A stretch of DNA of 64,000 nucleotides. Origin: Desulfomicrobium macestii. Lineage in GTDB: Bacteria; Desulfobacterota; Desulfovibrionia; Desulfovibrionales; Desulfomicrobiaceae. Shown here piece after piece: positions 17,516 through 46,171 of the stretch. The translations under genes and the position numbers were made by a program. Under the pieces are notes generated by a model, which saw nothing but the letters and a program-made list of their open reading frames with translations, searched no databases and was not told where the DNA came from. The stretch's first letter is position 1. Every line of letters begins with the position of its first letter. Location of the stretch: positions 1 to 64,000 of the forward strand of contig NZ_JADBGG010000012.1 of the NCBI RefSeq assembly GCF_014873765.1, read 5' to 3'.

Positions 17516-19855
<2,340 letters not shown>

Positions 19856-19916
19856 CACTACCGTTTATCCGGCTTCCTTGAAGCCCATCGTATAATCTTT
19901 TGCACGAGGTCACTTG

Positions 19917-22900
19917 ATGCCCAGAAAATATTCCCCCAAGCCGAAAATGCCCGCATCAGCCAATTCCTCTGCCATGCGGCCCGTGATCAGGCCATCGCTG
20001 TATGTGGCGGTGGGAGCCTCGGCGGGGGGCCTTGAGGCCATCGAGGCCTTTTTTACGGGCATGGCCTCGGACAGCGGCATGGCCTTCATCGTCATCCAGC
20101 ACCTTTCCCCTGACTACAAGAGCCTGATGGTCGAGATCCTGTCCAAGAAAACCAGGATGAAGGTGCACCGGGCCGAAGAGGGCATGCCCGTCATGCCGGA
20201 TAACGTCTATCTGATCCCGCCCAAGAAGAACCTGACCATATTTCACGGCAAGCTGCTCCTGAACGATCAGGAGCACGTCAAAGGCACCATCAATCTGCCC
20301 ATCGACATTTTCCTGCGCTCCCTGGCCGAGGATCAGGGGGACAAGGCCGTGGCGGTCATCCTCTCGGGATCGGGCAGCGACGGCATGCGCGGGGTCCGGG
20401 CAATCAAGGAATTCGGCGGCATGGTCATGGTCCAGAGCGAAAGCACGGCAAAATTCGACAGCATGCCCCGGGCCTCCATCTCCACGGGCCTTGTGGACTT
20501 CATCCTGCCGCCCGAGGAAATGCCCGAACGACTGCTGTCCTATGCCAAGCATCCCTTCGTCATAAAAGCCGAGCGCTCGGAGACCGTCATCAGCGACGAG
20601 GACGCCCTGACCCGCATCTTCGCCATCCTGCGCGACAAGTTCAAGGCGGACTTCACCTATTACAAGCCCAGCACCGTGACCCGGCGCATCGAACGCCGCA
20701 TGTCCATCAATCGCATCGACGAGATTCGCGATTACGTGGCCTTCATGCAGAATTATCCCGGCGAGGCGGGTACGCTCTTTCGCGAGTTTCTGATCGGCGT
20801 GACCAGATTCTTTCGCGATCGTGAGGTGTTTGATCTGCTCAAAGAGAACTGGCTGCCCGATATTCTGGACCGCGCCTCCGGAAAGGAGAGCCGGTTCTGG
20901 ATCGCCGGGTGTTCCACGGGCGAAGAGGCCTACACCCTGGCCATCCTGGCCAAGGAGTACATGCTGCAATCGGGAATCAACCGCGACCTGAAAATCTTCG
21001 CCACGGACATCGACCGCGACGCCGTCCTGTTCGCCGCCAACGGTGTCTACCCCGACAGCATCGCCGCCGATGTGCCCCAGGAACTGCTGAGCAAGTATTT
21101 CTACCGCAAGCAGGACAGCTACCAGATTTCGCGCAACATCCGCGAGATGGTCGTCTTTGCGCAGCACAACCTTATAAAGGATCCGCCGTTCACCAATATC
21201 GACCTCGTCTCCTGCCGCAACCTGCTCATTTATCTCCAGCCTGTCTTGCAGCGCAAGGTGCTTGAGTTTTTCAATTTTTCGCTCAATGCCCAGGGCGTTC
21301 TGCTGCTCGGCACCAGCGAGACCATCGGCGAGATGGGCGATTGCTTCGAGAGCCTCGATCACAAAAACAAGATCTACCGCACCAGGGGACGCTTCAAGCA
21401 CAGCATCGATGCCCGCGAACTGCCCCAGGCACCGAATTCGACCTACCGCGAGCTGGAAACCCGTTTTCCGGTGGCGCGCAGGGATCTTCACGTCGGCGAC
21501 GAGCGCATTCTGGAGCGTTTCCTGGAAGCCCTGAGCGCGGACAATTTTCCGCTGGCGGTTGTCGTCAACGAGCAAATGGAAGTGCTGCACATCTTCGGGG
21601 ATACACAAGGGTATTTCAAGCTGCCCTCCGGCAAGCTTTCGCGGGACATTTCCAAGATGGCTGCCAAGGATCTGGCCATTCCCCTTTCCACTGGCATTCA
21701 GAAGGTTTTCCGCAAGAACGAGGCGCTTCGTTTTTCCAACATAAAGCTGCGCGACATGGAAACGCTCAAGATCGTGGACCTGCGAATTTTGCCCCTGCCC
21801 CGCAAGAAAGGTCAGGAGCCCCTGGTGGCCGTCTTTCTGGAAGAGGTCGAAAGGCCCGACATTCTGGACAAGACCCAGGGCATCCAGGCCTACGACCTGT
21901 CTCTTGAGGCCGAGCAGCGGATCACCGACCTGGAGCAGGAACTGCAGTTCACCCGCGAGAATCTGCAAGCCACGGTGGAGGAGCTGGAAACAGCCAACGA
22001 GGAATTGCAGGCCACCAACGAAGAGCTTCTGGCCAGTAACGAGGAGCTGCAATCGACCAACGAAGAGTTGCAATCCACCAATGAGGAGCTTTACTCCGTC
22101 AACTCCGAATATCAGTCCAAGATCGTGGAACTGAGCGAGCTGCACAATGACGTGGACAACCTCCTGAACGTCAGCCAGATCGGGCAGCTTCTGCTGGACG
22201 AGAACATGGAGATCAGGCGCTTTTCGCCCAAGGTCGCCGATGTGTTCAAGGTGCTCGCCTCGGATGTGGGGCGGTCCCTGTCGGACATTTCGCATCAGCT
22301 GGAAAATATCGATCCGGTCCGGATCATCGAGACGGTGCACAAGGCAGGCAGAATGGCCGAGCACGAGGTTCGCGCCAAGGATGGCCGCTGGTATCTGATG
22401 CGGGTAATTCCTTACTCCGTGGGGCCAAAGGTTTTCTCTGGCACCCTGGTCTCCTTTGTGGACATCACCCGCATCAAGCTCGGGGAGGAAGCCCTGCGCG
22501 CGAGTGAGGAAGAATTCCGGGCCCTCTTTGAAACCCTCCCGCTTGGCGTGGTCTACCATGAGGCCGATGGTTCCATTATCTCCGCCAACAACGCGGCGGC
22601 TCGCATACTTGGCCTCTCCCTGGATCAGATAATGGGCAAGACAACCATGGACCCGCGCTGGAAGATGATCCGCGAGGACGGCTCCAGCGTGTCCGGAGAG
22701 CACCATCCGGCCATGATCGCCCTTCGCACAGGACACAGGGAAGGGCCGGTGGTGCGCGGGGTTTTTCACCCCGAAAAGAACGCCTACATCTGGCTCTCCA
22801 TAACAGCCATCCCCCTGTTCCAATCCGGCGCGAGCATGCCTACGCAGGTCTATGCGACATTCGAGGACATAACCGAGAAACGTCAGACGGAGCAGGACTA

Positions 22901-23282
22901 TCAGGCCCTTTTCCGGGAAATGTTCAACGGATTTTCGTTGCATGAAATCATCTGCGACGAAAGCGGCAAGCCCGTTGATTACCGCTTCCTGGCCGTCAAT
23001 CCGGCTTTCGAGAGGATGACGGGCCTTAAAAGCGAACAGATCTTGGGCAAGACGGTTCTTGAAGTCATGCCGGACACGGAAAAGTTCTGGATCGAATCTT
23101 TTGGAGAGGTGGCGTTGAGCGGCAAGCCCACAAGGTTTGAAAAACATTCCTCGCAACTCGGCAAGAGTTTTCAGGTCACCGCCTTCAGACCGGCGCGCAA
23201 TCAATTTGCCTGTGTTTTTGCCGAAGTCACGGGTGGTGATGAGGCCGGAAAATCAGCTCATCCGGATGACAGGGACTCTTGA
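19917..23282 (+). CDS. CheB-CheR-PAS fusion signalling protein
   Basis: The 1121-residue protein starts with a CheB methylesterase domain without receiver: VGASAGG (S35), QHLSPDY (H62) and [10 protein letters not shown] CheR methyltransferase follows ([36 protein letters not shown]). Next comes a long coiled coil around residues 660-730 built of repeated NEEL units ([20 protein letters not shown]), then three PAS domains. Such fusions usually act with hybrid kinases rather than flagellar receptors. GAGG seven bases upstream supports ATG 19917 over TTG 19914. The last PAS ([20 protein letters not shown]) is closely similar to one in the kinase at 42887. Confidence 0.9.
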
Positions 23283-26654: not shown

Positions 26655-27500
26655 TCAGATGCGCATGTAGGTGGCCGGGGCCAACTGCTTAAGCGGCAGG
26701 TCGGCGCCGGCCAGACTCTCGGAATGGCCGATGAACAGGTGCCCGCCGGGTTCAAGGTGGTTACAGAACTTCATGACCAGTTCATGCTGGGTCTTCTTGT
26801 CGAAATAGATCATGACGTTGCGGCAGAAGATCAGGTCCATTTTTTCGCGGAACTGAAAGTCATCCATGAAATTGAGCCGCCGGAAGCTGACCGTCTCGCG
26901 CAGTTCCGGGATGATGCGCACGACCCGTTTGCTCCTGTCCTTGCTGCGCAGCAGATACTTGCGCCTGAACTCCACCGGAATTGTCCCAATTTTTTCATCT
27001 TCGTAAACGGCGCGCGCTGCCTTCCTGAGAATGTCCGAGGAGATGTCCGTGGCCACTATGGTGAAGCGCAACGGGTTTACCCGCTCATGGTAATCCATGA
27101 GCGTCATGGCCGTGGTGTAGGGCTCTTCCCCTGAAGAACAGCCCGCGTTCCAGACCGCGAAGGTCTGGCCGGGATGTTTTTTCTGCCACTGCGGCAGGAT
27201 GTTCTGAGACAAGTACTCGAAATGCTTCGGTTCCCGGAAGAAGCTGGTCGTGTTGGTGGTCACCGCGTCCACCATCTGGGGCAACTCGACCTCCAGTCCC
27301 TTGAGGGTCTGCAGATACTCAAGATACTGTCCGTAGGACCTCATGCTCAGGGTGCGCAGCCTGCGCTGCAGACGCGCCTGCAACATGGTCTTCTTGGTCT
27401 GGGTGATCTTGATGCCCAGTTCCGAATAGATGAACTCGCTGAACTGCTTGAGTTCCTTGTCGGTCATGAGCGGAGCGGCCTGGCCGTTTGCGTCGTACAT
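26655..27500 (-). CDS. cheR: Chemotaxis receptor methyltransferase CheR
   Basis: The 281-residue protein has the CheR N-terminal helical domain (FSEFIYSELGIKI, MVDAVTTNTTSFFRE). A SAM-dependent methyltransferase domain follows with NAGCSSGEEPYTTAM, DISSDILRKA, FCRNVMIYFDK and FIGHSESL. It methylates glutamates of chemoreceptors using SAM. It is the last gene of the minus-strand che operon, three bases after cheA. A possible partner tether, EFERF, is the C-terminus of the membrane receptor encoded at the head of the operon. Confidence 0.93.
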   Translation of the reverse strand: MYDANGQAAPLMTDKELKQFSEFIYSELGIKITQTKKTMLQARLQRRLRTLSMRSYGQYLEYLQTLKGLEVELPQMVDAVTTNTTSFFREPKHFEYLSQNILPQWQKKHPGQTFAVWNAGCSSGEEPYTTAMTLMDYHERVNPLRFTIVATDISSDILRKAARAVYEDEKIGTIPVEFRRKYLLRSKDRSKRVVRIIPELRETVSFRRLNFMDDFQFREKMDLIFCRNVMIYFDKKTQHELVMKFCNHLEPGGHLFIGHSESLAGADLPLKQLAPATYMRI

Positions 27501-27503
27501 GGA

Positions 27504-29564
27504 TCAGGCCACCAGCGCCGCGATGTCGAGGATGAGCGCCATGCTGCCGTCGCCCTTGATGGTGGCTCCGGAAATCCCGCGTATGTCCTGATAGACCTTG
27601 CCCAGGCTCTTGATGACGGTCTGGTGCTCGCCGATGACTCTGTCCACGACGATGCCGACGCGCCGCCCCTGGGAGTTGCAGACCACGACCTGCTCGATCT
27701 CCGGGGTCTGCCCCGGAATCTCGAAACCGGCGCGCAGGCTGATGTAGGGCACCATCTGGCCGCGCAGGTTGATGAGATCGGCGCGGTCCTTGTCCTTGCG
27801 GATGAGTTCCACGCATTCCTCCACGGCCGACAGGGGCATGATGAAGTAGCTGTCCTCGACCTGAACCTGCAAACCGTCGATGATGGCCAGGGTCAGGGGG
27901 ATGCGCACGGAGATGGTCGTGCCCTGGCCGGGAACGCTCTCCAGGGAGATGCGGCCGCGCAGGGCGTCGATGTTGCGCTTGACCACGTCCATGCCCACGC
28001 CGCGCCCGGACACGCTGGTGACCTTGTCGGCCGTGGAGAAGCCCGGCGCGAAGATGAGCATCAGCGCGTCCTTGTCCGTCATGAGCGTGTCCGCGGCGAT
28101 GATACCTTTTTCCACGGCCTTGGCCCGGATGCGTTCGGGGTCGATGCCCGCGCCGTCGTCGATGATGCGGATGAGCACCTCGCCACCGGAATGCTCGGCC
28201 GAAAGCTCTATCCGGCCCTCGGGATTCTTGCCCTGGGCCATGCGCTCCTCGGGGCTCTCGATGCCGTGGTCGATGCTGTTTCTGAGCAGGTGCACCAACG
28301 GGTCGTTCAGGCGCTCGATGACGGTCTTGTCCAGCTCGGTGTCCTCGCCGTGGGTTTCAAGCACGATGCGTTTGCCGAGTTCCTGGGAGAGGTCCCGCAC
28401 CAGGCGCTTGAAGCGGCTGAAGGTCGACCCGATGGGCAGCATGCGGATGCCGAGCGTATTGTCGCGCAGCTCGTCGGAGAGCCGTTCGATCTCTTCGGAA
28501 ATGGCTTGCAGCCTTGCGTCGCTCTGCTCGCTGGCGAATTGGGTCAGGCGCGCCTGGGCCGTGACCAGTTCGCCGACCAGGTCAACCAGAAAGTCCAGTT
28601 TCTGGGCCGGAACCCGGATGCTCGACGCCTGTGCCTCGGTGCTGGCCGTCTGGCGCAGGCGTTTGACCTCCTGCTGTTCGACCAATGCCGCCTCGACCTG
28701 ACTTGCGCTGACCAGTCCCGCCTCTGACAAAAGCTGGCCGATGGGTTTGCGCTCCAGCAGAATACGCTCCAGGGCGTCCTTGGTGATGTCGTTTTTTTCG
28801 ACCAGGATCTGGCCGATAAGCTTGTAGGATTCCTCGTCGATGCCCTGGCAGCTTCCGACCATCTGGATGGTCAGGTCGCTGTCTTCCTCCACGAAGATGA
28901 AGACGTCACGGATTTCGTCCTCGCTGCCGGCCGTGGTCAGGATGATGTCCCACCAGACCAGACAGTCCTCGGGATTGAGTTCGGGCAGGGCGGGGATGTC
29001 CTTTGTGTGCATGATGACGTGATGCTCGCCCATCTCGCACAGCTCTTCCAGCAGGGAGGCGGGGTTGGTCCCGCTCATGAACAGGTTTTTGGGCGGGGCG
29101 AAGCGGATGCGCCAGGTGTTCATTTTCGAATTCGTGGCGCAGTTCGTCGCGGTTTCCATGCCCGCAGGGGCGGCTTCGGGCTCCTTCCGGCTTGGAGTCA
29201 GTGCCTTGAGTCCCTGGATGACTTCCGCGGCGCGTGCGCCCAGGCCCTGTTCCTCGCCTTCGAGCATGGATAGGATGTGGTCCCGGGCCAGAAGCGTGAG
29301 ATCGAGAAGTTCCTTGGATACGGAAATCTGGCCGTTACGCGCCAGATCAAAGACCGTCTCGACCTCGTGGGTGAAGGAGGCGATATCCTCGAAGCCGAAC
29401 ATGGCCCCCGAGCCCTTGATGGTATGCATGGCTCTAAAGACCCGGTTGATGACATCGTCATTGGCCGGATCTTCTTCGAGCTCAAGCAGGGAGGTTTCCA
29501 GTTCGCCCAAAAGTTCCAGGGCTTCTTCTTTAAATGCCTGACGGTTCAGTTCTTCTCTGGACAT
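27504..29564 (-). CDS. cheA: Chemotaxis histidine kinase CheA
   Basis: The 686-residue kinase has an HPt domain with AMHTIKGSGAMFGF (H47) and a variable middle region. It then has a dimerisation helix pair (LDFLVDLVGELVTAQARL), a HATPase (DPLVHLLRNSIDHGIE, DDGAGIDPERI, GRGVGMDVV) and a C-terminal CheW-like domain (INLRGQMVPYISLR). Around residues 255-305 two consecutive segments (IGQILVEKNDITKDAL and IGQLLSEAGLVSASQV) form an internal repeat resembling MshEN/T2SSE-N units. GGAG precedes ATG 29564. CheA transfers phosphate from H47 to CheY and CheB. Confidence 0.95.
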   Translation of the reverse strand: MSREELNRQAFKEEALELLGELETSLLELEEDPANDDVINRVFRAMHTIKGSGAMFGFEDIASFTHEVETVFDLARNGQISVSKELLDLTLLARDHILSMLEGEEQGLGARAAEVIQGLKALTPSRKEPEAAPAGMETATNCATNSKMNTWRIRFAPPKNLFMSGTNPASLLEELCEMGEHHVIMHTKDIPALPELNPEDCLVWWDIILTTAGSEDEIRDVFIFVEEDSDLTIQMVGSCQGIDEESYKLIGQILVEKNDITKDALERILLERKPIGQLLSEAGLVSASQVEAALVEQQEVKRLRQTASTEAQASSIRVPAQKLDFLVDLVGELVTAQARLTQFASEQSDARLQAISEEIERLSDELRDNTLGIRMLPIGSTFSRFKRLVRDLSQELGKRIVLETHGEDTELDKTVIERLNDPLVHLLRNSIDHGIESPEERMAQGKNPEGRIELSAEHSGGEVLIRIIDDGAGIDPERIRAKAVEKGIIAADTLMTDKDALMLIFAPGFSTADKVTSVSGRGVGMDVVKRNIDALRGRISLESVPGQGTTISVRIPLTLAIIDGLQVQVEDSYFIMPLSAVEECVELIRKDKDRADLINLRGQMVPYISLRAGFEIPGQTPEIEQVVVCNSQGRRVGIVVDRVIGEHQTVIKSLGKVYQDIRGISGATIKGDGSMALILDIAALVA

Positions 29565-29585: not shown

Positions 29586-29948
29586 TTAGCGCAGCAGTTT
29601 CTTGGCAACCGCCAGGAGCTGATCCGGTTTGAAGGGTTTGACGATCCAACCGGTGGCTCCGGCCGCCTTGCCTTCTTCTTTGGTGGATGCCTGGGATTCC
29701 GTGGTCAGCATGATTATGGGCACGAACTTGTATTGAGGCGTGGCGCGCACGGCGCGGATAAGTTCGATGCCGTTCATGTTGGGCATATTCAGATCGGTCA
29801 CGATCATGTCCACCGGTCCGGACAGCTTGGCCAGGGCATCCTTGCCGTCGCAGGCCTCGATGACCGTGTACCCCGCGTCCTTCAAGGTCAGGCTGACCAT
29901 CTGACGGACGCTGGCTGAGTCATCAACCGTCATTATGGTTTTACTCAT
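29586..29948 (-). CDS. cheY: CheY-type response regulator
   Basis: The 120-residue single receiver domain has TVDDSASVRQM (acidic pair), MIVTDLNMPNMNG (phosphoacceptor Asp), MLTTES (Thr) and VKPFKPDQL (Lys). It is the likely motor or pathway output of the CheA encoded next. The ATG overlaps the stop of the STAS gene by four bases with GAGG upstream, so synthesis is coupled. Confidence 0.93.
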   Translation of the reverse strand: MSKTIMTVDDSASVRQMVSLTLKDAGYTVIEACDGKDALAKLSGPVDMIVTDLNMPNMNGIELIRAVRATPQYKFVPIIMLTTESQASTKEEGKAAGATGWIVKPFKPDQLLAVAKKLLR

Positions 29949-30262
29949 GGGTTATCCTCTGTGCGATTCGTTATTTCCTTGATGAGACTGTCCGCCCCAA
30001 GGCTCGCCGCGTTTTCGAGCAGGTGAGGGGGCAGACTCGTGAAACTGATTGTCTTGTCCTGCTCCTTCAAGAGGGAGCAGAGGATCTGGACAAAAGAGAG
30101 GTCCGATTTTTCCGAATCACCCAGATCAAGGGTAATGACAGCGGCCTTTGGCAAACGGGCCAGCAGCTCGGCGTGAATTTCCCTGGAATGTTCAAGAGTG
30201 AGACTGCCGGAAAGTTTTATGACCGGATGTTCCGGGGGGCCCTGGACGGTACATGAAAACAT
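29945..30262 (-). CDS. STAS-domain protein
   Basis: The 105-residue protein fits a STAS (anti-sigma-factor antagonist-like) fold: VIKLSGSLTLEHSREIHAEL, then AAVITLDLGDSEKSDLSFVQ and a C-terminal helix with LENAASLGADSL. The position normally holding the phosphorylatable Ser in SpoIIAA (DLSFVQ) has Ser next to the strand end, as in many MCP-operon STAS proteins. Its role in chemotaxis operons is not established. It lies between the soluble receptor-like gene (16-base gap) and cheY (four-base overlap). Confidence 0.8.
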   Translation of the reverse strand: MFSCTVQGPPEHPVIKLSGSLTLEHSREIHAELLARLPKAAVITLDLGDSEKSDLSFVQILCSLLKEQDKTISFTSLPPHLLENAASLGADSLIKEITNRTEDNP

Positions 30263-30277: not shown

Positions 30278-32308
30278 TTAGAAAAGTTCCACATTGTCGC
30301 CGAGATCATCTTCAGGCTCAGCCTTCTTGGCGGTAGCGGCTTTTGACGATGGCTTCGCGTTGGCCGCCGTCGGCTGCTCTTCGAAAATTTCCACGTTGTC
30401 GTCGGTAAAAAGTTCGACATTGTCATCGCCGAAAAGTTCCACATTGTCGTCGGAAAAAAGTGTGACATTGCCGTCGTCGAAGAGTTCCACGTTGTCATCG
30501 GAAAAGAATTCCACATTGTCGTCGCCGAAAAGCTCGACGTCATTGTCGTCGAACAGATCCGCCTCGCCACCGTCGTGAGCGTCCCCGTGATGTCCGAGAA
30601 CGGACAGGTGGACCAGGCGTTCGCTGTCCATGGTGTATCGGGAAAGCTGTTCGCGCAGTTTCTCGGGTTGTCTGGCCGCGTCGAGTTCCGCCGAGAAGGG
30701 GGCGAATCTGTCTTTCAACACCGTGATTTCCTTTTCCAAACTCAATAATTGATCCGATACCAGTTCATGGAAATGGATGGAAGAGGTCACGGCGCTGATT
30801 TGTGAGACAAGTCCCGTGCCGAGGTCCGAGAGGTGCGCGATGTTTGCCGCCAGTTCAGCGTCAAGGGTGGCCAGCTGGTCGAGCACGGTTTCAAAGCGAC
30901 CCTGGATGCCGTCCACCATTTCAGATACGTCCGAGGTACGGGCCAAGGTTGAGAGGCGGTCGGCCACGGTGGAAATATTGTTCAGGATTTCGGCTACGGT
31001 TCCCGTACGGGTGCGGGCGTCCACGGAGAGGTTCTGGATTTCCATGGCGATGACCCCGAGGGTGCGGCCCTGATCGCCGGTGTGGGCGGCCTTGACCCGG
31101 GCGTTCAGCGCGATGAGTTCGATCTCTGCTCCGATGTCCTCGATGCCATGCACGAAGGTGCTGACCGTGGAGATGGTTTCCGCCATGTGCGACATGGTCT
31201 TCGATGTCTCGGAGATGTGCCCGCTGGTGGTGCGCATGGCGTTCATGACGTCGCCGATGTGGTGACGGATGGCGTCGAGAATGGACATTCCGCCCTTGCG
31301 GTCCGCATAGGCCACGGCAGTGATCTTGCCGTGCAGGTCCTCGATGCCGTGTCCGATGGAGCGCAAATTGTCGATCAGTTCGTCCACGGCTCCGGAAAAC
31401 ATTTCCTGCGCCTGGCGCAGTTGCGGTGCCTGGAGTTTGAGCACGTCCCGCACCCAGGCTCCAAGGCCGAGCTCTCCGCCTTCCTTTTCCGGCGCGCTGA
31501 TTTCCCGGACAGCCTGGTCCAAAATTTCCTCGACATGCTCGACCTGCTGGCGGGTGATGTCGTGAAATTGCACCGAGGCGATGACCTGTCCCATGCTCTC
31601 GGTCACTTGGCGGGATCCTTTGGCCAAATCCTGCACCAGGGCGGCCGAATGGTTGCGCATGTCCTCAAGCTCGGAAATTCCGGCAAAGAGTTCCGTGAAC
31701 ATGTCCTCGACGATGCGATTCTGCGAGGCGAGCTGCTTTTTGCTGCGCTCGCTGGCCGACGCCACCTGATTCATGAGCAGGTGCGAATGTTCGCTGATTT
31801 TTTCAGTGTGCTCGTCGATGATCGTGCCCAGGGCCCTGACGTCGTCGGCCAGGGTGGTGAATCCGGCACCGGCGCTGCCCAGACGGGCGCTCTCGATGCG
31901 CGTGGTGATTTCGAGCACCTTCAGAGTCTGAACCATGTTGAAAAATTGGGCCATGGCCTGGTCCAGGCCGCGGATGAGTCCGAGCACCTCGGACATTCCT
32001 TCCTGCTGCTCCGTGGAGGAGACGGAGGAAAACACGGCCTTTGCCTCGTCGGCCCGGGTCTGCAGTTCCCCGATGGCCGCGAGCAGGGCTCCTTCGCCAA
32101 CGGAGGAGGCCATGGCCGAGGCCGTGGCCGAAAACGTGTTAGCCTGCGAGTTGATGCCGAAAATCGTGGCTCCCAGTCCGAGAAAATCCTCTTCTCTATC
32201 CTTGATGACACCGGCAAGGCGGGACAGAAGCGCGGGCAGGCTGCTGGCGCATTCCTCCATCACGGACACAATTTCCTGGAGAGAAGGCGCTATTTCGTCT
32301 TGAGGCAT
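30278..32308 (-). CDS. Soluble double-hairpin receptor-like protein with octapeptide array
   Basis: The 676-residue protein has no membrane helix and is predicted mostly alpha-helical. Two segments resemble the signalling tip of methyl-accepting proteins: LEITTRIESARLGSAGAGF (about residues 130-150) and IALNARVKAAHTGDQGRTLG (about 390-410). Both are divergent from the canonical [15 protein letters not shown] seen in the neighbouring receptor. After a short linker come seven tandem octapeptides of DDNVELF type, and the last six residues repeat DNVELF. The N-terminus, MPQDEIAPSLQEIV, resembles the CheY-binding start of FliM. ATG 32308 was chosen because AAGGA lies eight bases upstream; a TTG at 32368 is the alternative. 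It sits between cheW and the STAS gene. Confidence 0.8.
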   Translation of the reverse strand: MPQDEIAPSLQEIVSVMEECASSLPALLSRLAGVIKDREEDFLGLGATIFGINSQANTFSATASAMASSVGEGALLAAIGELQTRADEAKAVFSSVSSTEQQEGMSEVLGLIRGLDQAMAQFFNMVQTLKVLEITTRIESARLGSAGAGFTTLADDVRALGTIIDEHTEKISEHSHLLMNQVASASERSKKQLASQNRIVEDMFTELFAGISELEDMRNHSAALVQDLAKGSRQVTESMGQVIASVQFHDITRQQVEHVEEILDQAVREISAPEKEGGELGLGAWVRDVLKLQAPQLRQAQEMFSGAVDELIDNLRSIGHGIEDLHGKITAVAYADRKGGMSILDAIRHHIGDVMNAMRTTSGHISETSKTMSHMAETISTVSTFVHGIEDIGAEIELIALNARVKAAHTGDQGRTLGVIAMEIQNLSVDARTRTGTVAEILNNISTVADRLSTLARTSDVSEMVDGIQGRFETVLDQLATLDAELAANIAHLSDLGTGLVSQISAVTSSIHFHELVSDQLLSLEKEITVLKDRFAPFSAELDAARQPEKLREQLSRYTMDSERLVHLSVLGHHGDAHDGGEADLFDDNDVELFGDDNVEFFSDDNVELFDDGNVTLFSDDNVELFGDDNVELFTDDNVEIFEEQPTAANAKPSSKAATAKKAEPEDDLGDNVELF
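30383..30550 (-). repeat. Seven 24-bp tandem repeats encoding DDNVELF-type octapeptides
   Basis: Read on the minus strand the units are DDNDVELF, GDDNVEFF, SDDNVELF, DDGNVTLF, SDDNVELF, GDDNVELF and TDDNVEIF. The aspartates, Asn, Val and final Phe are nearly invariant, and the first residue varies. An eighth copy, LGDNVELF, is the extreme C-terminus of the protein (codons at 30281-30304). The 24-bp period preserves the frame if units are gained or lost. Confidence 0.9.
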
Positions 32309-32370: not shown

Positions 32371-32856
32371 TTATGCTTCCAGTTCTTCCGTGCTGCGCAA
32401 GACCTGCAATTCTTCGGGTGAGAAGACCTTGCCGATATCGAGGATCATGATGAACTCCTCGTTTTGCTTGCCCATGCCCCGGATGAAGTCCGCCCTGATG
32501 GACGTACCCATGCGCGGCGGCGGGTTGATCTGGTCGCTTGTCATTTCAAAGACTTCACGTACCGAATCGACTATCGCCCCCATGTAGCAGTTTTCTCCTT
32601 CGACTTCCACATCAACTATTATGATGCACGTGTTGACCGTGTCCTGGGCCTTGGGCATGTCGAACTTGATGCGCAGATCGACCACGGGCACGGCGTGGCC
32701 GCGCAGATTGATGACCCCGCGCATGTAGGGCGGCGTCTTCGGGATGCGGGTCACGGACACGAGTTCGATGACCTCGCGCACGGAACCCGTCTCCAGGGCA
32801 AAGACCTCCTCGCCGAGACCGAAGGTCAGGTACTGCAGGGTAGTGTTGTCACTCAT
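32371..32856 (-). CDS. cheW: Chemotaxis coupling protein CheW
   Basis: The 161-residue protein is a single CheW domain: LTFGLGEEVFALETGSVREV, the MRGVINLRGHAVPVVDLR core and MGAIVDSVREVFEM. It links the receptors to CheA. It lies 19 bases after the membrane receptor gene and 62 bases before the receptor-like gene at 32308. GAGGTG precedes ATG 32856. Confidence 0.94.
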   Translation of the reverse strand: MSDNTTLQYLTFGLGEEVFALETGSVREVIELVSVTRIPKTPPYMRGVINLRGHAVPVVDLRIKFDMPKAQDTVNTCIIIVDVEVEGENCYMGAIVDSVREVFEMTSDQINPPPRMGTSIRADFIRGMGKQNEEFIMILDIGKVFSPEELQVLRSTEELEA

Positions 32857-32875: not shown

Positions 32876-34909
32876 TTAGAAACGTTCGAATTCATCATCT
32901 TCTTCGTCGCGCCCCATATCAAGGGCCAAGCCGCTGGTCGAGCCCTTGGCGGCCAGGGCCTTGGGGGCCTTGCGCGCGGGCTGCGGCCTGCTGCTGCCCC
33001 GATGGGCGGTCTGCCGGGTGACGCGGGCCGCCGTGGCGCCCAAATGGAAGAAGGAGATGGAGGACTGCAACTGTTCGGCCTGGCTGGACAGTTCCTCGGA
33101 TGTGGAGGCCATTTCCTCGGAAGCCGAGGCGTTCTGCTGAATGACCTGATCAAGCTGCTGCAGGGCCTTGTTGATCTGCTCGGCGCCGGCGTTCTGTTCG
33201 TTGGATGCGGCGGAGATCTCCTGCACCAGTTCGGCGGTGCGCTGGATGTCCGGGACGAGCTTGGTCAGCATCTGACCGGCTTGGTCGGCCACGCTCACGG
33301 TGGAGGAGGACAGCTCGCTGATTTCGGCCGCGGCGGTGCCGCTGCGTTCGGCCAGCTTGCGCACTTCGGCCGCGACCACTGCGAAGCCCTTGCCATGCTC
33401 GCCGGCGCGGGCGGCCTCGATGGCGGCATTGAGGGCCAGCAGGTTGGTCTGGCGGGCGATCTCCTCGACGATGGAGATCTTCTCGGCGATGTTCTTCATG
33501 GCACCCACGGCCTGGACCACGGCCTGACCGCCGGCCTCGGCGTCCTGCGCGGCCTTCAGCGCGATCTTTTCGGTCTGGGAGGCGTTGTCGGCGTTCTGGC
33601 GGATGTTGGAACCCATCTCTTCCATGCTCGACGAGACCTCTTCAACGGAGGCGGCCTGCTCGGTGGCGCCCTGGGAGAGCTGCTCGGCGGAGGCGCTCAG
33701 TTCCTCGGAGCCCGAGGCCACGTTGTCGGAAGCCGACTGCACTTCGGTCACGATCTCGCGCAGCTTGGCGACCATGTCGCGCAGTGCCTGGGCCAGGATG
33801 CCGACTTCGTCCTTCTGATCCACATCCAGTTTGGCGGTCAGGTCGCCCTGGGACAGCTTGCGGGCAAATTCCACGCCCTGCTGCACCGGGCCGGTGATAC
33901 CCTTGGTCAGGAATATGGCGACAAGAATGCCGATGATGACACTAAAGCTCAAGCCGCCGATCATGACCGTGGAAGCCGAGTTGAGGTTCAGCACGGCTTC
34001 GTCGGCGATATTCTGGGTGCCTTCCATGCCCGCCACGGCCGTATCTTGCGCGACGGCGAGGACATCTTCGCCGGTTTTCGTACGTTGGGTGTTGAGGTCT
34101 GCAAGCTCTTTCCAGTGTCCGTTCAGACTGGTCATGGCCGTCTTGTACTGCATGGCCGCATCTTTTGTGGCTGCGATCTGCCTGAGGTTAGCCTCCTGTC
34201 TCGTGACCGCTTTGAGCTTGTCGAAAAATTCGTCCATTTTCGGGAAGTTCTTGAGGGCGTCCTCGATAATCTTCGGATCCCGTTCCGCCTGGGCGCGCCA
34301 AACCTTTATGCGGGTATCATTACCGAGGTCGATGATTTCATTGACCCAGGTGATCTTGTCGAGACGCTCGGTCAGCGCCTCGGGGGTGGCTCCTGCGGTG
34401 AACTCGCGCTTCATGGCCACGTTCTGGCTATCGAGAAAATCCACGCAGTTTTTCATGTAGGCGGCCGCGCCCTGGTCCAAGGCCTTGCGGTCCCCATTCA
34501 TCGCTTCGATCAGCTCAACGGTCTGGTCGGACTGGGCGGCGTATGAGGCGACCACTGCCTTGGCCTGCACCAGCTGCTCTTTGAGTTTGACCAGGGAAGG
34601 ATAGGCCAGGGAATGCTTTTCAGCATCGGTCAAAACATCCTGCACCGCGGCAAGCTGCTTGCGCCCTTCGTCCAGGAAGGACTGTTGTTCCGTGAAGGCA
34701 TAGCCGCGCCATGCGTACATGGTCAGCAGGGAGGAGCGTTCCAGTTCATTGGCTATGCCCACTTCAGGCACATACTCCTTGGCCAGCCGGATGGAATCCG
34801 TTTCCACGGCTTTCATGTTGAATACGGCCAGACCACCCAAAGCGCAGGCGATAATAATCAGAACTCCGAAACCTCCGCCGATCTTGATCCCCAACTTGAT
34901 GTTTTTCAT
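32876..34909 (-). CDS. Methyl-accepting chemotaxis protein
   Basis: The 677-residue receptor has an N-terminal membrane helix (about 10-30), a helical periplasmic sensor of about 285 residues and a second helix (about 318-338). A HAMP domain follows, then a cytoplasmic signalling domain with the canonical tip [20 protein letters not shown]. Its C-terminus, EFERF, fits the x-aromatic-x-x-aromatic pentapeptide that tethers CheR/CheB in other bacteria, reached through a flexible linker rich in Ala, Arg and Pro. A strong AGGAGG lies before ATG 34909. It heads the che operon. The ligand is unknown. Confidence 0.93.
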
Positions 34910-37024: not shown

Positions 37025-37588
37025 GTGTCTATGATATGGTAGTCAGTTTTTTTGGTGCAAGCATTTTATGTCGGACACGCATAATATTTTTTCTGCGCTT
37101 AAAAATGCACTCTTGCAACAAAATCGGAATTCCCATGGGCGCATGAGTGTCGGACGGACGAAAAAAAATGCTTTCAACCCATTGGTTTGCCGGGCCGCAG
37201 TGTCCTGGGGAGCGGCTCATACCTCAAATAGTCTTTGTGTCGAACGTGTTGCGTATGTCCGGAAAAAAGTGTTGACCATAAAAGCGTGGCTATTTCATAC
37301 TCGCCATGTGAGTCCTCGAATTTTTGAGTCCGCGTGCGGCCGAGTTCAAAAATGATGTGCCGGATGACGTGCCGAGGAATAACCCCGAAAAGGCCCGCAG
37401 CCGGTTCAAACCGGAAGAAACTTTGGAGGGAAGGTTTGGAATTTGTTTGAAATCGTTCTTGCGTAAGGCATCGATATTATGTTTGAATAAAAAATTATTG
37501 TCTACAGGCGGCGCTTGCTCGGACAGAATTCACGGTGATTGCAAAAATTCATGCGGCGACGAGGAACTCAAGTAAGGAAGCAGGCCCA
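37025..37588. other. Divergent regulatory region between XRE-PAS gene and kinase operon
   Basis: About 560 bases with no supported gene, AT-richer than the flanks. TGTCGGACA (37069-37077), TGTCGGAC (37148-37155) and TGTCGAAC (37238-37245) form a spaced set of similar sites, candidate operators for the XRE-PAS protein. A CCGGTT/AACCGG palindrome lies at 37401-37414. Promoters for both directions should be here; none could be assigned with confidence. Confidence 0.45.
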
Positions 37589-39706
37589 ATGACGAGACGA
37601 CAAATTTCCACTCTTTGTTCAGCCTTCGCTTTAATTTTAGTCCTTTTTTTCGGGCACTGCTATTTGAGCATCCTTGTGGACAATACCCGGCAAAGCGAGC
37701 GCCTGGCCCTGACCCACAGGATTTCACAGCAACTCAGCGCCATCCAGGCCGCGCTCCACAACGCCGAATCCCCGCTTTTCACCCTGTCCGACATTCTGGC
37801 TGTCGATCGCGGGGAATTCGATGATTTCGAAAAGCATGCCGAACATCTGTTGCACGAAAATCCTTTTGTCGGCGGCCTGTTCCTGGTCCCGGACGGCGTG
37901 GTCGCCACGGCCTATCCCCTGGCAGGCAATGAAGCCGCCATCGGTCACGACCTGCTCAAAGACCCGGCACGCAAGACCGAGGTCCTTGAAGCCATAAACA
38001 CCAATCAGGTGGTCCTGGCCGGGCCGGTGCAGATGCGTCAGGGCGGAGTCGGGCTTTTCGCCCGCAAGCCCGTGTTCTGGAATGACAACGGGGAGCGGCA
38101 TTTCTGGGGGCTGGTCGTGGCCCTGATCCATTGGGGAACCGTGCTTGAAACCTTTGATTTCAAGTCCCTGGACGCGGATGGCTATTCCTACGCTCTTTCC
38201 CGAAAGCTGAGCACGGACAAGGACGCCACGCTCATTGTCCGATCCGAGGCGGACATTGTCGAGGATCTTGCCCTGACACGGGCCCTGGCCATTCCGGGCG
38301 GGGAGTGGCTACTGACCGTCTCGCCCCGGGAAGATCGTCTCTGGGGCGTGGCCCTTGGTGGATACGTTCTTGTCGCCATGTTCGGAATGGTTGTCGCGGG
38401 GTTGTGTTTTCATCTCTTGCGCGGACGGGAAAAAATCCTGATCCAGGCCGAAGAGCTTGGGCGCATGAACGCGGAAATGGAGCGCGACATCGCCCGGCGC
38501 GAAAAGGCCGAGGCGGATCTGCTCAAGGCCAAGGATGCCGCCCTGTCGGCCACAAAGGCCAAGTCGCAGTTCCTGGCGACCATGAGCCATGAGATCCGCA
38601 CCCCCATGAACGGGGTGCACGGGATGCTGCAATTGCTCGAAGGCACGAAGCTGGACGCGGAGCAAGAGGAGTATGTCCAGATTGGTTCCTCGGCCCTGCA
38701 GAGTCTTTTGACCCTCATCAACGATATCCTGGATTTCTCCAAGATCGAGGCCGGAAAGCTCGAAATCGCCCGGACTCCTTTTGCCCTGGATGAACTCTGC
38801 CGCTCCATTCCGGCCATTTTCAAGGAACAGAGCCTGGCCAGAAACCTTGAACTTTCCATTGAAATGGCGTCGGATGTCCCACATATGGTCGTGGGCGATC
38901 CGAGCCGTATCCGGCAGGTGCTGCTCAACGTTGTCGGCAATGCGGTCAAGTTCACGCGCGAGGGCGGCGTCTCGATCAGGATATCCGCGACGACGGAAGG
39001 ACTTCCCCCCGATGCGGCGCGACTTGATTTCGAGGTCACGGACACCGGGATCGGCATCGGCGCGGAGCAGTTGCCGAATCTTTTCAATCCGTTCATCCAG
39101 GGCGGGGAAGGGCTGGTTCGCACCTGCCAGGGCACGGGTCTGGGGCTGACCATCGTCAAGCGCCTGGTTCATCTCATGGGCGGAGATGTCGAGATTGAGA
39201 GTTCCCTGGGCAAGGGAACAACGGTGCGCTTTCACGTGCTGGTCCATTTGCCGCCGACGGTGCAGGAGCAGGGCGAAGGCTGTGCCCGAAACATCGGGAA
39301 CAGGGCGCGCGGGGCGGAGCGGAATCTGAGCATCCTGCTCGCCGAGGACGACGTGACGAACATGGCCATGCTGACCCGCCTGCTGGAAAAGCTCGGTTGT
39401 GAGGTCACCCAGGCCGTCAACGGCCTTGAAGCGGTGCGGATCCTGGAAAACGAGGACCTGGATCTTGTCCTCATGGACATCCAGATGCCACTCATGGACG
39501 GGGTCGAGGCGACCCGGCGCATTCGGGCGAACCGGTCCCTTGGCAACAAGTCCCGGATTCCGATCATCGCCGTGACCGCTTTCGCCATGACCGGAGACAG
39601 AGAGCGCTTTCTGGACGCGGGCATGGACGACTACATTCCAAAACCCGTGAACATGAATTCACTTCTCGAAGCCATGGACAGGGTGGCGGAATTCAAGACG
39701 ATGTGA
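37589..39706 (+). CDS. CHASE-domain hybrid sensor histidine kinase
   Basis: The 705-residue protein has two membrane helices (about 7-27 and 250-275) flanking a periplasmic CHASE sensor with FVGGLFLVPDGVV, AINTNQVVLAGPVQ and GLFARKPVF. HisKA has SHEIRTPMNG (H334), the HATPase has NVVGNAVKF and GTGLGLTIVKRL, and the receiver has LVLMDIQMPLMDG (D630). CHASE domains bind small extracellular ligands. ATG 37589 with AAGGA ten bases upstream was chosen over the earlier in-frame ATG 37535. It is the first of five genes running to 49991. No HPt is present. Confidence 0.9.
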   Translation: MTRRQISTLCSAFALILVLFFGHCYLSILVDNTRQSERLALTHRISQQLSAIQAALHNAESPLFTLSDILAVDRGEFDDFEKHAEHLLHENPFVGGLFLVPDGVVATAYPLAGNEAAIGHDLLKDPARKTEVLEAINTNQVVLAGPVQMRQGGVGLFARKPVFWNDNGERHFWGLVVALIHWGTVLETFDFKSLDADGYSYALSRKLSTDKDATLIVRSEADIVEDLALTRALAIPGGEWLLTVSPREDRLWGVALGGYVLVAMFGMVVAGLCFHLLRGREKILIQAEELGRMNAEMERDIARREKAEADLLKAKDAALSATKAKSQFLATMSHEIRTPMNGVHGMLQLLEGTKLDAEQEEYVQIGSSALQSLLTLINDILDFSKIEAGKLEIARTPFALDELCRSIPAIFKEQSLARNLELSIEMASDVPHMVVGDPSRIRQVLLNVVGNAVKFTREGGVSIRISATTEGLPPDAARLDFEVTDTGIGIGAEQLPNLFNPFIQGGEGLVRTCQGTGLGLTIVKRLVHLMGGDVEIESSLGKGTTVRFHVLVHLPPTVQEQGEGCARNIGNRARGAERNLSILLAEDDVTNMAMLTRLLEKLGCEVTQAVNGLEAVRILENEDLDLVLMDIQMPLMDGVEATRRIRANRSLGNKSRIPIIAVTAFAMTGDRERFLDAGMDDYIPKPVNMNSLLEAMDRVAEFKTM

Positions 39707-39731
39707 AGGCAGCTTTTTTTGGGGGGATGAA

Positions 39732-42886
<3,155 letters not shown>

Positions 42887-42890
<4 letters not shown>

Positions 42891-45800
42891 TGTCCACAAA
42901 AGAAAAAGCTGAAGCACTCAGTCAGGAGCAGGGGCAAAAATCCGCCGAGCAGCCCTGCGAGCTCGAAACGCTGCGTCGCCGGGTGGCCGAACTGGAGGGC
43001 AGGGCCGACGCGGCTGCGAGGGCCGAGGAGAGGCTGGCTCGTCAGGACGCGTTGATGCAGGCCATTCTTCGCAACCTGCCTTTTGATTTCTGGGCGCGGG
43101 ATCTCGATGGAAAGATCATCATGCAAAGCGACGCTTCCGTGCGCCTTTGGGGGGATATGGCCGCGAGCCGTGTCGAGGAAAGAGATGTTCCAGATGAAAT
43201 CCGGAACGCATGGGAGGACATCAATGCCCGGGTCTACGCAGGTGAAGTGGTGGAGGGCGAAAAGAAGTATGTCCTCTCCTCCGGCGAGACGCGCTTCTAT
43301 CGCGACATAGTCGCGCCGATCCGCATGGGAGAAGGGCTGCTTGGAATTCTGGGGACCAATGTCGACATCACGGAGCAGGTTCAAAGCATCCGCGCCCTGC
43401 ATGCCAGCCAGGCCAACCTGGCCTCGCTGTTCGATTCCATCGATGAATCCGCCGCGCTTCTGGAGCTGGACGGCACGGTCATAACGGCCAACCGGACCTT
43501 TGCCAGCCGTGTCGGCAAGACGGTGAAACAATGCCTGGGCCGCTCCATCTACGAGTTTATTCCCACCGAGGTGGCCCTGTCACGCAAGCGCCTGGTCGAG
43601 GATCTGGTGCGCAACGCGCAGCCCCTGGTTTTCGAAGATGAGCGGGAGGGTCTGTGGATGCGGCACAGCCTGAGTCCGGTGCTCGCGCCGGACGGGTCGG
43701 TGGTGGCCATAGCCACCTTTGCGGTGGACATAACCGAGCGCAAGCGGCGCGAGAATCTGCTCGTCGCGCGTCAGCGGATTGTCGAGTACGCCATCAACCA
43801 TTCCTTGAGCGATTTGCTGCGCATGGCTCTCGACGAGACCGAGAGCCTGACCGGAAGCACCTTGAGTTTTCTGCACTTCTTGAACGAGGATCAGGGAATT
43901 CTATCCATGCAGGCCTGGTCCACAATGACCTTGCAAACCGGTTTTTCGATCCCGCGCGACAATCCGGATCTGGAAATAACGCAATTCGGAATCTGGGCGG
44001 AATGCCTGCGCACCCGCAAGGCCGTCATTCTGAACGATCAGGCCACGCTCGATCGCGAAAATGGGCTGCCAAAAGGGCATCCTCCCCTGAAACGCCTGGT
44101 GCTTCTGCCCATCGTGCGCGCCAAAATAATCGTGGCCATTCTGGCAGTGGCCAACAAGAAAACAGATTACACCGATGAGGATGTGCAGGTCCTCATTGAG
44201 CTTGGCAACCTGCTGTGGGACATTCTGGAGCACAAACGCGCCCAGGAAGAGCTGGCCAAGAGCGAAGCCCTGCTCAACATGGTCCAGCGTCTGAGCGGAA
44301 TGGGTGGATGGCTGTGGGATGTCCGCCAGAACAGCATGATCTGGACCCGGGAACTCTATCGTCTGCACGGATTCACTCCCGATCAGGTCGAGCCGGGATC
44401 ATCCGAGCACATCCGGCTCAGCCTGGCCTGCTATGAGCCCGATGACAGGGACAGGATACTCGCCGCTTTCGACAACTGTGTCGAACATGGCGTTTCTTTC
44501 GATTTGGAGATGCCATTCGTTTCGGCCACGGAAAAACGGATGCGGATTCGCACCAGGGCGGAGGCGATCCTGGAAGGGGGCGAGGTGTCCAAGGTGGTCG
44601 GCATCTTCGAGGATGTTACCGAACGCAGGATTCTCGAACAGCGTTACGAAACCCTTTTTTGGCACATGCTGGACGGTTTTGCCCTGCACGAGATCATCTG
44701 CGACGCAGAAGGTCATCCTGTGGATTACCGTTTTCTGGAGGTCAATCCGGCCTTTGAACGGCACACCGGCCTCATGGCTTCGGACATCAAGGGCAGAACG
44801 GCGCGGGAAGTCATGCCCGCCATCGAGCAGGTCTGGATCGACACGTATGGCCGGGTGGCCCTGACGGGTGAACCGGTGCTGTTCGAGGAATACGCGGCAG
44901 CCCAGGACAAGTATTTTCACGTTACCGCCTTCCGCCCGGCGCCCATGCAATTCGCCTGCATTTTCTCCGATGTTTCGGAACGCAAGCGTCACGAGCGGGA
45001 TCTGCGCCATGCCAAGGAAGCCGCCGAAGCCGCCAACGTGGCCAAATCGGAATTTCTGGCCAACATGAGCCATGAGATCCGCACACCGCTGAACGGCATC
45101 ATAGGCATCCTGCAACTGCTTGACTCCATGGAACTTTCCGAAGAACATAAAAATCTGGTCGAACTGGCCGGGACCTCGGCCGATCGCCTGAACGTTCTTT
45201 TGTCGGATATCCTGGATCTGGCCAGAATCGAATCCGGCAAGCTGGCCATCAAGGCCATGCCTTTCAAGCCCGAGGAGCTGCGGGCATCCACGCTGGGACT
45301 TTTTACCCCGACCTCCCGAAGCAAGGGACTGCGGCTTGAGTTTGTCCTTGATCCTGCTCTGCCCACCATGGTTGTCGGGGACGAATCCAGGTTGAGGCAG
45401 GTGCTTTTCAATCTGGTGGGCAACTCCGTCAAGTTCACCCGGACAGGTTTCGTGCGCGTCGATGTCAGCCCCGTGCCGGGTTGCACGTCATCCAAGGTTC
45501 TCTTTTGCGTCAGCGATTCCGGGCCGGGCATTCCCGACCATCAGCTGGATGGAATCTTTTCCCCATTCGTGCAGGGCGAGGATTCCTATGTGCGCAACCA
45601 CCAGGGTGCCGGGCTTGGCCTTGCCATCGTCAAACGCATCGTGACCCTGATGGGTGGCTCTCTTTGCGTGGACAGTTCGGAAAAGGGCACCGTCATGTGC
45701 TTCTCCATCGTCATGCCCGTGGCCTCCGATGCCAGGACGCCCAGTGTTCACAAGGCGACTGCTGCGCCAGGCGTCCGCGAAGGGCTTAACATTCTTCTCG

Positions 45801-46171
45801 TGGAGGATGACGCCGTGAGCATGTTCGCGGCCCGGCGCGTGCTTGAAAACGCAGGACACACGGTCACCGGAGTCGGCGACGGCAGCGAAGTTGTACCGAC
45901 CCTCAGGGAGGGCGACTTCGATCTTGTCATCATGGACGTGCAACTGCCGGTCATGGACGGCTTACAGGCCACGGCCCTGGTGCGCGGCGATGCTTCCCTC
46001 GGGGACAAATCCCGCATCCCCATCGTGGCCATGACGGCCTACGCCATGGGCGGCGACCGGGAAAAATTTCTGGCAGCGGGCATGGACGACTATATTGCCA
46101 AGCCCATCAACGCCAAGGAACTGCTTGCCGTGCTGGACAGGCTTGGAGCCCTTTCGGCGGGAAAACAATGA
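42887..46171 (+). CDS. PAS/GAF multi-sensor hybrid histidine kinase
   Basis: The 1094-residue soluble protein has an N-terminal coiled coil and two PAS domains (about 55-170, 178-285). A GAF domain follows (about 295-450, LLPIVRAKIIVAILAVANK), then two more PAS domains (about 460-580, 590-700). HisKA (H729), HATPase (LVGNSVKF, GAGLGLAIVKRI) and a receiver (LVIMDVQLPVMDG, D1017) end the protein. Its last PAS (GFALHEIICDAEGHPVDYRF) nearly duplicates one in the CheB-CheR fusion at 19917. ATG ATG at 42887 overlaps the previous stop. No HPt is present. Confidence 0.88.

Follow-up and report, generated by a model that had tools for sequence, protein, structure and literature searches.

Systems that terminate the CheY signal include CheZ, CheC/CheX/FliY and CheT, and chemoreceptors tether the adaptation enzymes CheR and CheB by a C-terminal peptide of the pattern x-[HFYW]-x-x-[HFYW]-COOH. 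In the receptor tether W at position 2 and F at position 5 predominate, and the tether of class 34H reads xF/YxxF/Y, as given in the accessible text of the two reports (PMC7390727, PMC2577667). The motif given for CheZ in the available part of PMC7750401 is AXXFQ-DXXXQ. S. meliloti CheT is described as a DXXXQ phosphatase from a che cluster that includes the STAS protein CheS; it dephosphorylates one of two CheYs, has a CheZ-like predicted structure and binds CheR (PMC12654446, accessible text). Here we describe the family of P0001, a protein encoded in the 64,000-nucleotide stretch of DNA that we analysed (the window), and we tentatively favour, at somewhat short of an even chance, the reading that in P0001 a receptor has given rise to a soluble CheY phosphatase-like protein, with a docking tail that has been multiplied here.

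A receptor-like protein in a che operon

The P0001 reading frame opens with an ATG at 32308, a start that agrees with that of the nearest homologue (L002), and closes with a stop at 30278. By Pfam assignment the operon has the order MCP-CheW-P0001-STAS-CheY-CheA-CheR:

32876..34909, minus strand: receptor (MCP) with a HAMP domain, ending DEFERF (Pfam)
32371..32856, minus strand: CheW, with a single CheW domain (Pfam)
30278..32308, minus strand: P0001 gene, receptor-like DxxxQ protein of 676 aa (open reading frame and Pfam)
29945..30262, minus strand: STAS-domain protein (STAS_2), to be compared with CheS (Pfam)
29586..29948, minus strand: CheY (Pfam)
27504..29564, minus strand: CheA (Pfam)
26655..27500, minus strand: CheR (Pfam; its beta-subdomain loop is compared below)

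The first-pass annotation of this DNA had placed P0001 in a normal che operon; the gene order stands, but "normal" needs qualifying since no gene for CheB or CheD was seen in the operon. Its description of a membrane-free protein was correct, the highest 19-residue Kyte-Doolittle mean being 1.23. As for a ligand-binding domain, no Pfam domain besides MCPsignal scored above cut-off in P0001, and known soluble receptors are likewise without both a membrane span and a ligand-binding domain. The STAS gene (29945-30262) lies 15 bases past P0001 in the same frame, and CheT-bearing rhizobial clusters are described as having a STAS protein, CheS (PMC12654446, accessible text). Translations read by eye place a CheB-CheR-PAS hybrid and several hybrid histidine kinases near the operon (19914-23282, 17516-19855 and 37535-46171). 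We also considered a link to the CheA3 cluster of Desulfovibrio vulgaris, where the motility-linked cheA3 is described as the last gene of an operon that has a parA homologue (PMC3944678, in the part accessible); here CheR follows CheA, and the two are probably different clusters.

The body of the protein carries the following features, with conservation counted over the 100 family members described in the next section:

31814..31927, minus strand: first degenerate receptor-tip segment, residues 128-165 (E139 in 99, G149 in 94 and F150 in 100 of 100)
31535..31576, minus strand: D-x-x-x-Q motif SVQFHDITRQQVEH, residues 245-258 (invariant residues; in register with CheZ FQDLTGQ; AF2 helix break at 246-247)
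31019..31153, minus strand: second degenerate receptor-tip segment, residues 386-430 (MCPsignal match 363-498; N402 in 100 and G411 in 99 of 100)
30749..30778, minus strand: decayed second motif copy IHFHELVSDQ, residues 511-520 (half-half alignment; AF2 helix break at 511-512)
30608..30637, minus strand: YTMxSERxxH box, residues 558-567 (Y, T, M, E, R and H conserved in 93-100 of 100)

Pfam MCPsignal matches P0001 in two stretches at 66.8 bits (cut-off 34.6), in agreement with the two degenerate receptor-tip segments of the first-pass annotation. The canonical MCP tip is absent from P0001, with EIELIALNARVKAAHTG at the position of the tip in the operon's own MCP; we judged the P0001 tip non-canonical by the residues that presumably matter for contact with CheA and CheW. 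Since the tip-like segments differ from the tip of the operon's receptor, the usual coupling to CheA/CheW is doubtful. The protein is internally duplicated: an alignment pairs residues 120-290 with residues 380-580 (probability 95, E 4e-8), placing FHDITRQ opposite FHELVSD, and the motif is retained in the first half while its second copy is poorly conserved across the family. In an AF2 model built from 11 sequences (mean pLDDT 75, pTM 0.49) helices extend from residue 10 to 571 and break just ahead of both motif copies. The top Foldseek rows for this model are chemoreceptors (8c5v_I, E 2.1e-4), with only two rows reaching E 0.001, and among the VIA rows ranked by Z generic helical bundles (toxins, TTYH) stand above receptors, so the fold search supports a receptor-like helical bundle and no more. 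CheZ does not appear among the 50 Foldseek and 50 VIA matches listed for P0001, an absence that excludes nothing. Between body and tail sits the YTMxSERxxH box, for which no Pfam domain accounts.

The family, its D-x-x-x-Q motif and its gene linkage

A contig search with P0001 gave 14 loci, 13 of which are family members and some of which are genomes sampled again later (e.g. L008 and L112). A family profile (A1) built from 11 members found the family in 71 of 297 class genomes (E up to 1e-25) and in 34 of 297 phylum genomes (E up to 1e-30). The gap within the class is wide: full-length matches have E 9.9e-99 or better and the next match is a fragment at 6.9e-26 (G083:C7), which was left out of the family reading. 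The 100 members read comprise P0001 with 72 further class proteins, plus 27 from the rest of the phylum, drawn from P0001, L066-L138 and L191-L217 only; nine of the 39 phylum matches are without a locus in this set and lie outside the count, and two of them, L223 and L226, end in DNVDLF and DNVELF. The L013 and L014 proteins are identical and come from assemblies labelled Bacteroidota and Deltaproteobacteria, one of which labels is probably wrong through metagenome binning. The open-licence literature that we searched does not name the family, and the strings DNVELF, DNIELF and VQFHDITRQ brought up no papers there. The family is real, distinct, conserved and widespread.

Residues Q247, D250, R253, Q254 and H258 are present in 100 of 100 members, the motif in P0001 being FHDITRQ. 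At position 249 seven of the 100 have Q in place of H, and the FQDITRQ of five members closely matches the AXXFQ-DXXXQ given for CheZ (PMC7750401, accessible part). Of 73 class sequences, 7 have S for F at position 248, and at least 6 of these belong to L085-L096. By hhalign, FHDITRQ falls in register with CheZ FQDLTGQ (probability 13, E 0.0023; the C-terminal half of P0001, as control, gives probability 4 and E 0.011), and Pfam CheZ (PF04344) scores 13.1 bits over residues 178-265, below its cut-off of 30.7. Profile homology to CheZ is thus weak, and on such scores our claim stops at a shared motif: judged by sequence, the D-x-x-x-Q of the family is the one that marks two CheY phosphatases, CheZ and CheT, and the family most likely works like these proteins, with membership claimed in neither. 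The source genome encodes its own CheZ besides P0001; this CheZ ends in DVDDLLSQLGL, and the DNVELF tail of P0001 is without the VDDLL stretch of that CheY-binding helix. We rejected the idea that the family replaces CheZ, since CheZ co-occurs with it in 64 of the 71 class genomes that carry the family (overlap counted by hand).

The family gene is linked to one type of CheY, and 83 of 98 loci encode it no more than 1.3 kb downstream; of the 31 loci that have wide flanks, all 31 carry CheA downstream and 30 carry CheY. Among the linked CheYs (84 rows), T82, E84 and W101 are kept by 100% and N54 by 96%, and these CheYs are without lysine at the position that we take to be the site of E. coli CheY K92. 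Twelve loci of one genus (L085-L096) keep motif and tail with no CheY within 1.3 kb downstream, and CheY was not seen in the 16-kb stretch of L173, the one stretch read for this genus. CheA went undetected around five of 20 phylum loci (L218, L219, L223, L224 and L226). At L218 and L219 there are no che genes nearby and the family gene stands alone; two similar small genes (about 200 and 216 aa) precede it there (L218 10232-13744, L219 1836-5599). Near L226, which has no CheA, the sole receiver protein is of another kind. The usual CheY is present at L223 and L224, both without CheA or CheR, and we considered such orphan pairs as proof of a CheY client. That argument is weakened by a transposase gene directly after the CheY of L224 (6443-8292, Pfam), where the operon may thus be truncated, and by the neighbourhood of L223, where a receptor and kinases accompany two CheB-type genes.

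The presence of CheA in every wide-flank locus and the receptor-like fold would also suit a non-enzymatic scaffold, in which D-x-x-x-Q is structural and the tail serves to dock CheA, the STAS protein or a pole or array component; the tandem receptor hairpins recall DosM, described as a scaffold receptor (PMC9321776, accessible text). We regard this as quite improbable given the phylum loci where no CheA was detected (L224 of these beside a transposase), the detection of STAS in 48 of 98 downstream stretches, probably an undercount because phmmer with one reference detects it weakly, and the invariance of D and Q, which suits catalysis better. The STAS protein as a universal client is weakened by that same count.

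The C-terminal peptide and its multiplication

The tail of P0001 runs in the order ADLF, seven octapeptides, linker, DNVELF-COOH:

30551..30562, minus strand: degenerate array unit ADLF, residues 583-586, the ninth, immediately before the array
30383..30550, minus strand: array of seven octapeptides, residues 587-642 (direct reading and TRF)
30281..30298, minus strand: terminal DNVELF, residues 671-676, most likely the ancestral copy (C-terminal equivalent in 100 of 100 members)

The octapeptides are, in order, DDNDVELF, GDDNVEFF, SDDNVELF, DDGNVTLF, SDDNVELF, GDDNVELF and TDDNVEIF, and TRF finds a 24-base period over 30384-30532. The 119-aa tail holds nine loose-core matches, a number reached in 0 of 100,000 shuffles (shuffle maximum 4), and residues 573-676 are predicted to be disordered (AF2 pLDDT about 30-40). 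All 100 family members close with the pentapeptide [NGD][VI][ED][LF]F, flush with the C-terminus (N in 96; V in 89 and I in 11; E in 94 and D in 6; L in 97 and F in 3; F in 100). The DNA pattern DN[VIM]E[LF]F-stop gave 62 matches, spread over 61 of 297 class genomes, and the reversed control gave none. Family members account for 61 of these matches, and the remaining one (G098, L123), which ends a short unrelated frame, was taken as chance. Since the terminal peptide is found in every member, the last copy is most likely ancestral.

The number of copies varies. By a loose pattern that also matches 18 times in 59,748 body residues, so that a few of the two-copy cases may be chance, 69 of 100 members have one docking copy, 13 have two and 18 have three to nine, and throughout the family internal copies retain a [VIAL]-[EDTN]-[LIMF]-F core. 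On a quick tree with some long branches, three or more copies need 3 changes and two or more need 8. The larger arrays belong to the genus of the window itself (f1 g1) and to f4 g19, and near relatives differ in copies (L138 8, L129 6, L127 6, L132 7, L131 4). Genome G138 has two family copies, L111 and L132, with 3 and 7 docking units. We read the array as a lineage-specific multiplication of a widespread, putative docking peptide. Such differences between near relatives, together with the looser internal copies (VTLF, VEFF, ADLF), could also arise if only the terminal copy were functional and the rest came from neutral slippage in an acidic tail prone to repeats. This is very unlikely: the internal copies hold the hydrophobic-E/D-hydrophobic-F core, the extra copies changed repeatedly on the tree, and the codon differences among the eight units comprise 61 synonymous and 47 non-synonymous ones, whereas neutral change predicts an excess of the latter.

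The first-pass annotation likened this tail to the peptides by which receptors tether CheR or CheB. Not one of the 100 family tails fits x-[HFYW]-x-x-[HFYW], all having V/I at position 2 and L/F at position 4, whereas 21 of 26 receptor frames in these loci end tether-like, with F at 2 in all 21 and R/K at 4 in 19. The tail could nevertheless be a variant CheR (or CheB) tether that gathers adaptation enzymes, with the array multiplying the tether. It occupies the same C-terminal place after a disordered linker, F676 being present in 100 of 100 members, and has the same hydrophobic-E-x-F-COOH spacing (NWETF, EFERF, NVELF); receptor pentapeptides are described as mostly acidic (PMC7390727), and E3 and F5 have been modelled as CheB contacts (PMC8609364), in the accessible parts of these reports. 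The downstream CheRs keep two arginines ten residues apart in a basic setting in 23 of 24 rows (24 of 31 loci gave a CheR and seven none; the L169 row is misaligned, in the wrong frame). The two match R187 and R197 in the list of tether-binding CheR residues (PMC2577667, accessible text), and by their spaced arginines the CheRs of family operons look tether-binding. There are also the CheB-type genes near L223, the binding of CheR by S. meliloti CheT (PMC12654446, in part) and the prospect that a CheT-like phosphatase-CheR complex would combine both roles. Agreement in spacing, E3 and F5, and the CheT precedent, make CheR/CheB a serious rival; we nonetheless think it doubtful, given the misfit of every tail and array-bearing L176, which has CheY and CheA and in which neither CheR nor CheB was detected in 16 kb. 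The coexistence of two C-terminal codes in these loci favours different clients, and the CheZ-like plan and gene linkage favour CheY as client of the tail. A resemblance of NVELF to what we take to be the sliding-clamp motif, QLxLF, was set aside as showing no link.

The earlier interpretation thus survives in part. Seven contiguous octapeptides and a terminal DNVELF are read directly, and the peptide behaves as a conserved docking motif would, its terminal copy fixed and its internal copies variable in number; the family profile search finds arrays in homologues, which disposes of the objection that they might belong to one strain. Likeness to the CheR/CheB tether was not supported in the form proposed. 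Missing from that account were the invariant D-x-x-x-Q, the internal duplication and the origin of the array in a single ancestral C-terminal peptide that was multiplied.

A candidate CheY phosphatase and its known counterparts

On the phosphatase reading, two tandem receptor-like hairpins would form the helical body; the N-terminal hairpin would bear the CheZ/CheT-type D-x-x-x-Q site and the C-terminal hairpin would have lost it, so that a single P0001 chain may be comparable to a CheZ dimer in which one site is dead. The disordered tail would end in a docking peptide, [V/I]-E-L-F, whose likeliest client is a response regulator, the CheY whose gene lies second downstream of P0001, which it would dock by analogy with the C-terminal peptide of CheZ. 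Multiplied to eight copies in the window lineage, the peptide could let one phosphatase hold or buffer several CheY. This reading draws on the D-x-x-x-Q in 100 of 100 members, the hhalign register with CheZ, the plan of bundle, linker and C-terminal peptide in the AF2 model, the CheY linkage in 83 of 98 loci, the non-tether tail, L176 with no CheR or CheB detected and the CheT precedent. We count against it the weak CheZ scores, the missing VDDLL, L085-L096 without a nearby CheY, the stand-alone L218 and L219, the co-presence of CheZ in 64 of 71 genomes and the linked CheYs without a lysine equivalent to K92. An extended version seems unlikely to us: duplication of a receptor hairpin would have produced a single-chain CheY phosphatase, one of its two sites live and the other dead, and a tail array, multiplied more than once, would sequester as many as eight CheY~P (or adaptation enzymes) as a copy-number-encoded sink in chemotaxis-like signalling across the phylum, with Desulfomicrobium, Nitratidesulfovibrio and Geomesophilobacter as its named relatives.

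If the phosphatase reading is true, the family joins the few CheY-terminating systems as a widespread addition and a receptor fold is shown to be able to become a phosphatase. The family offers a natural series of 1 to 9 docking peptides for studying multivalent docking in a response, and its strict short tail motif, named here, is a candidate handle for its partner.

Set beside receptor pentapeptides (NWETF, EFEKF), the P0001 tail is likewise C-terminal, in an acidic context, with E at 3 and F at 5; it differs in V/I at 2, L/F at 4, internal arrayed copies and its place on a protein other than a transmembrane receptor. DosM, the double-signalling-domain receptor of F9 arrays, is described as having two signalling segments in tandem, as P0001 has tandem halves; in P0001, however, the tips are degenerate, and the operon CheW has one CheW domain where that of F9 has three, so the triple-CheW partner is absent (PMC9321776, accessible text). 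CheT has in common with P0001 the D-x-x-x-Q and a STAS gene in the che cluster; compared by description, tandem receptor-like hairpins and a docking array of the P0001 kind go unmentioned in the accessible text on CheT (PMC12654446). Unlike CheZ, P0001 has a receptor-like duplicated body and a tail of DNVELF in place of VDDLLxxLG, and it shares with CheZ the D-x-x-x-Q after F-[QH] and the plan of helical body, flexible linker and C-terminal peptide.
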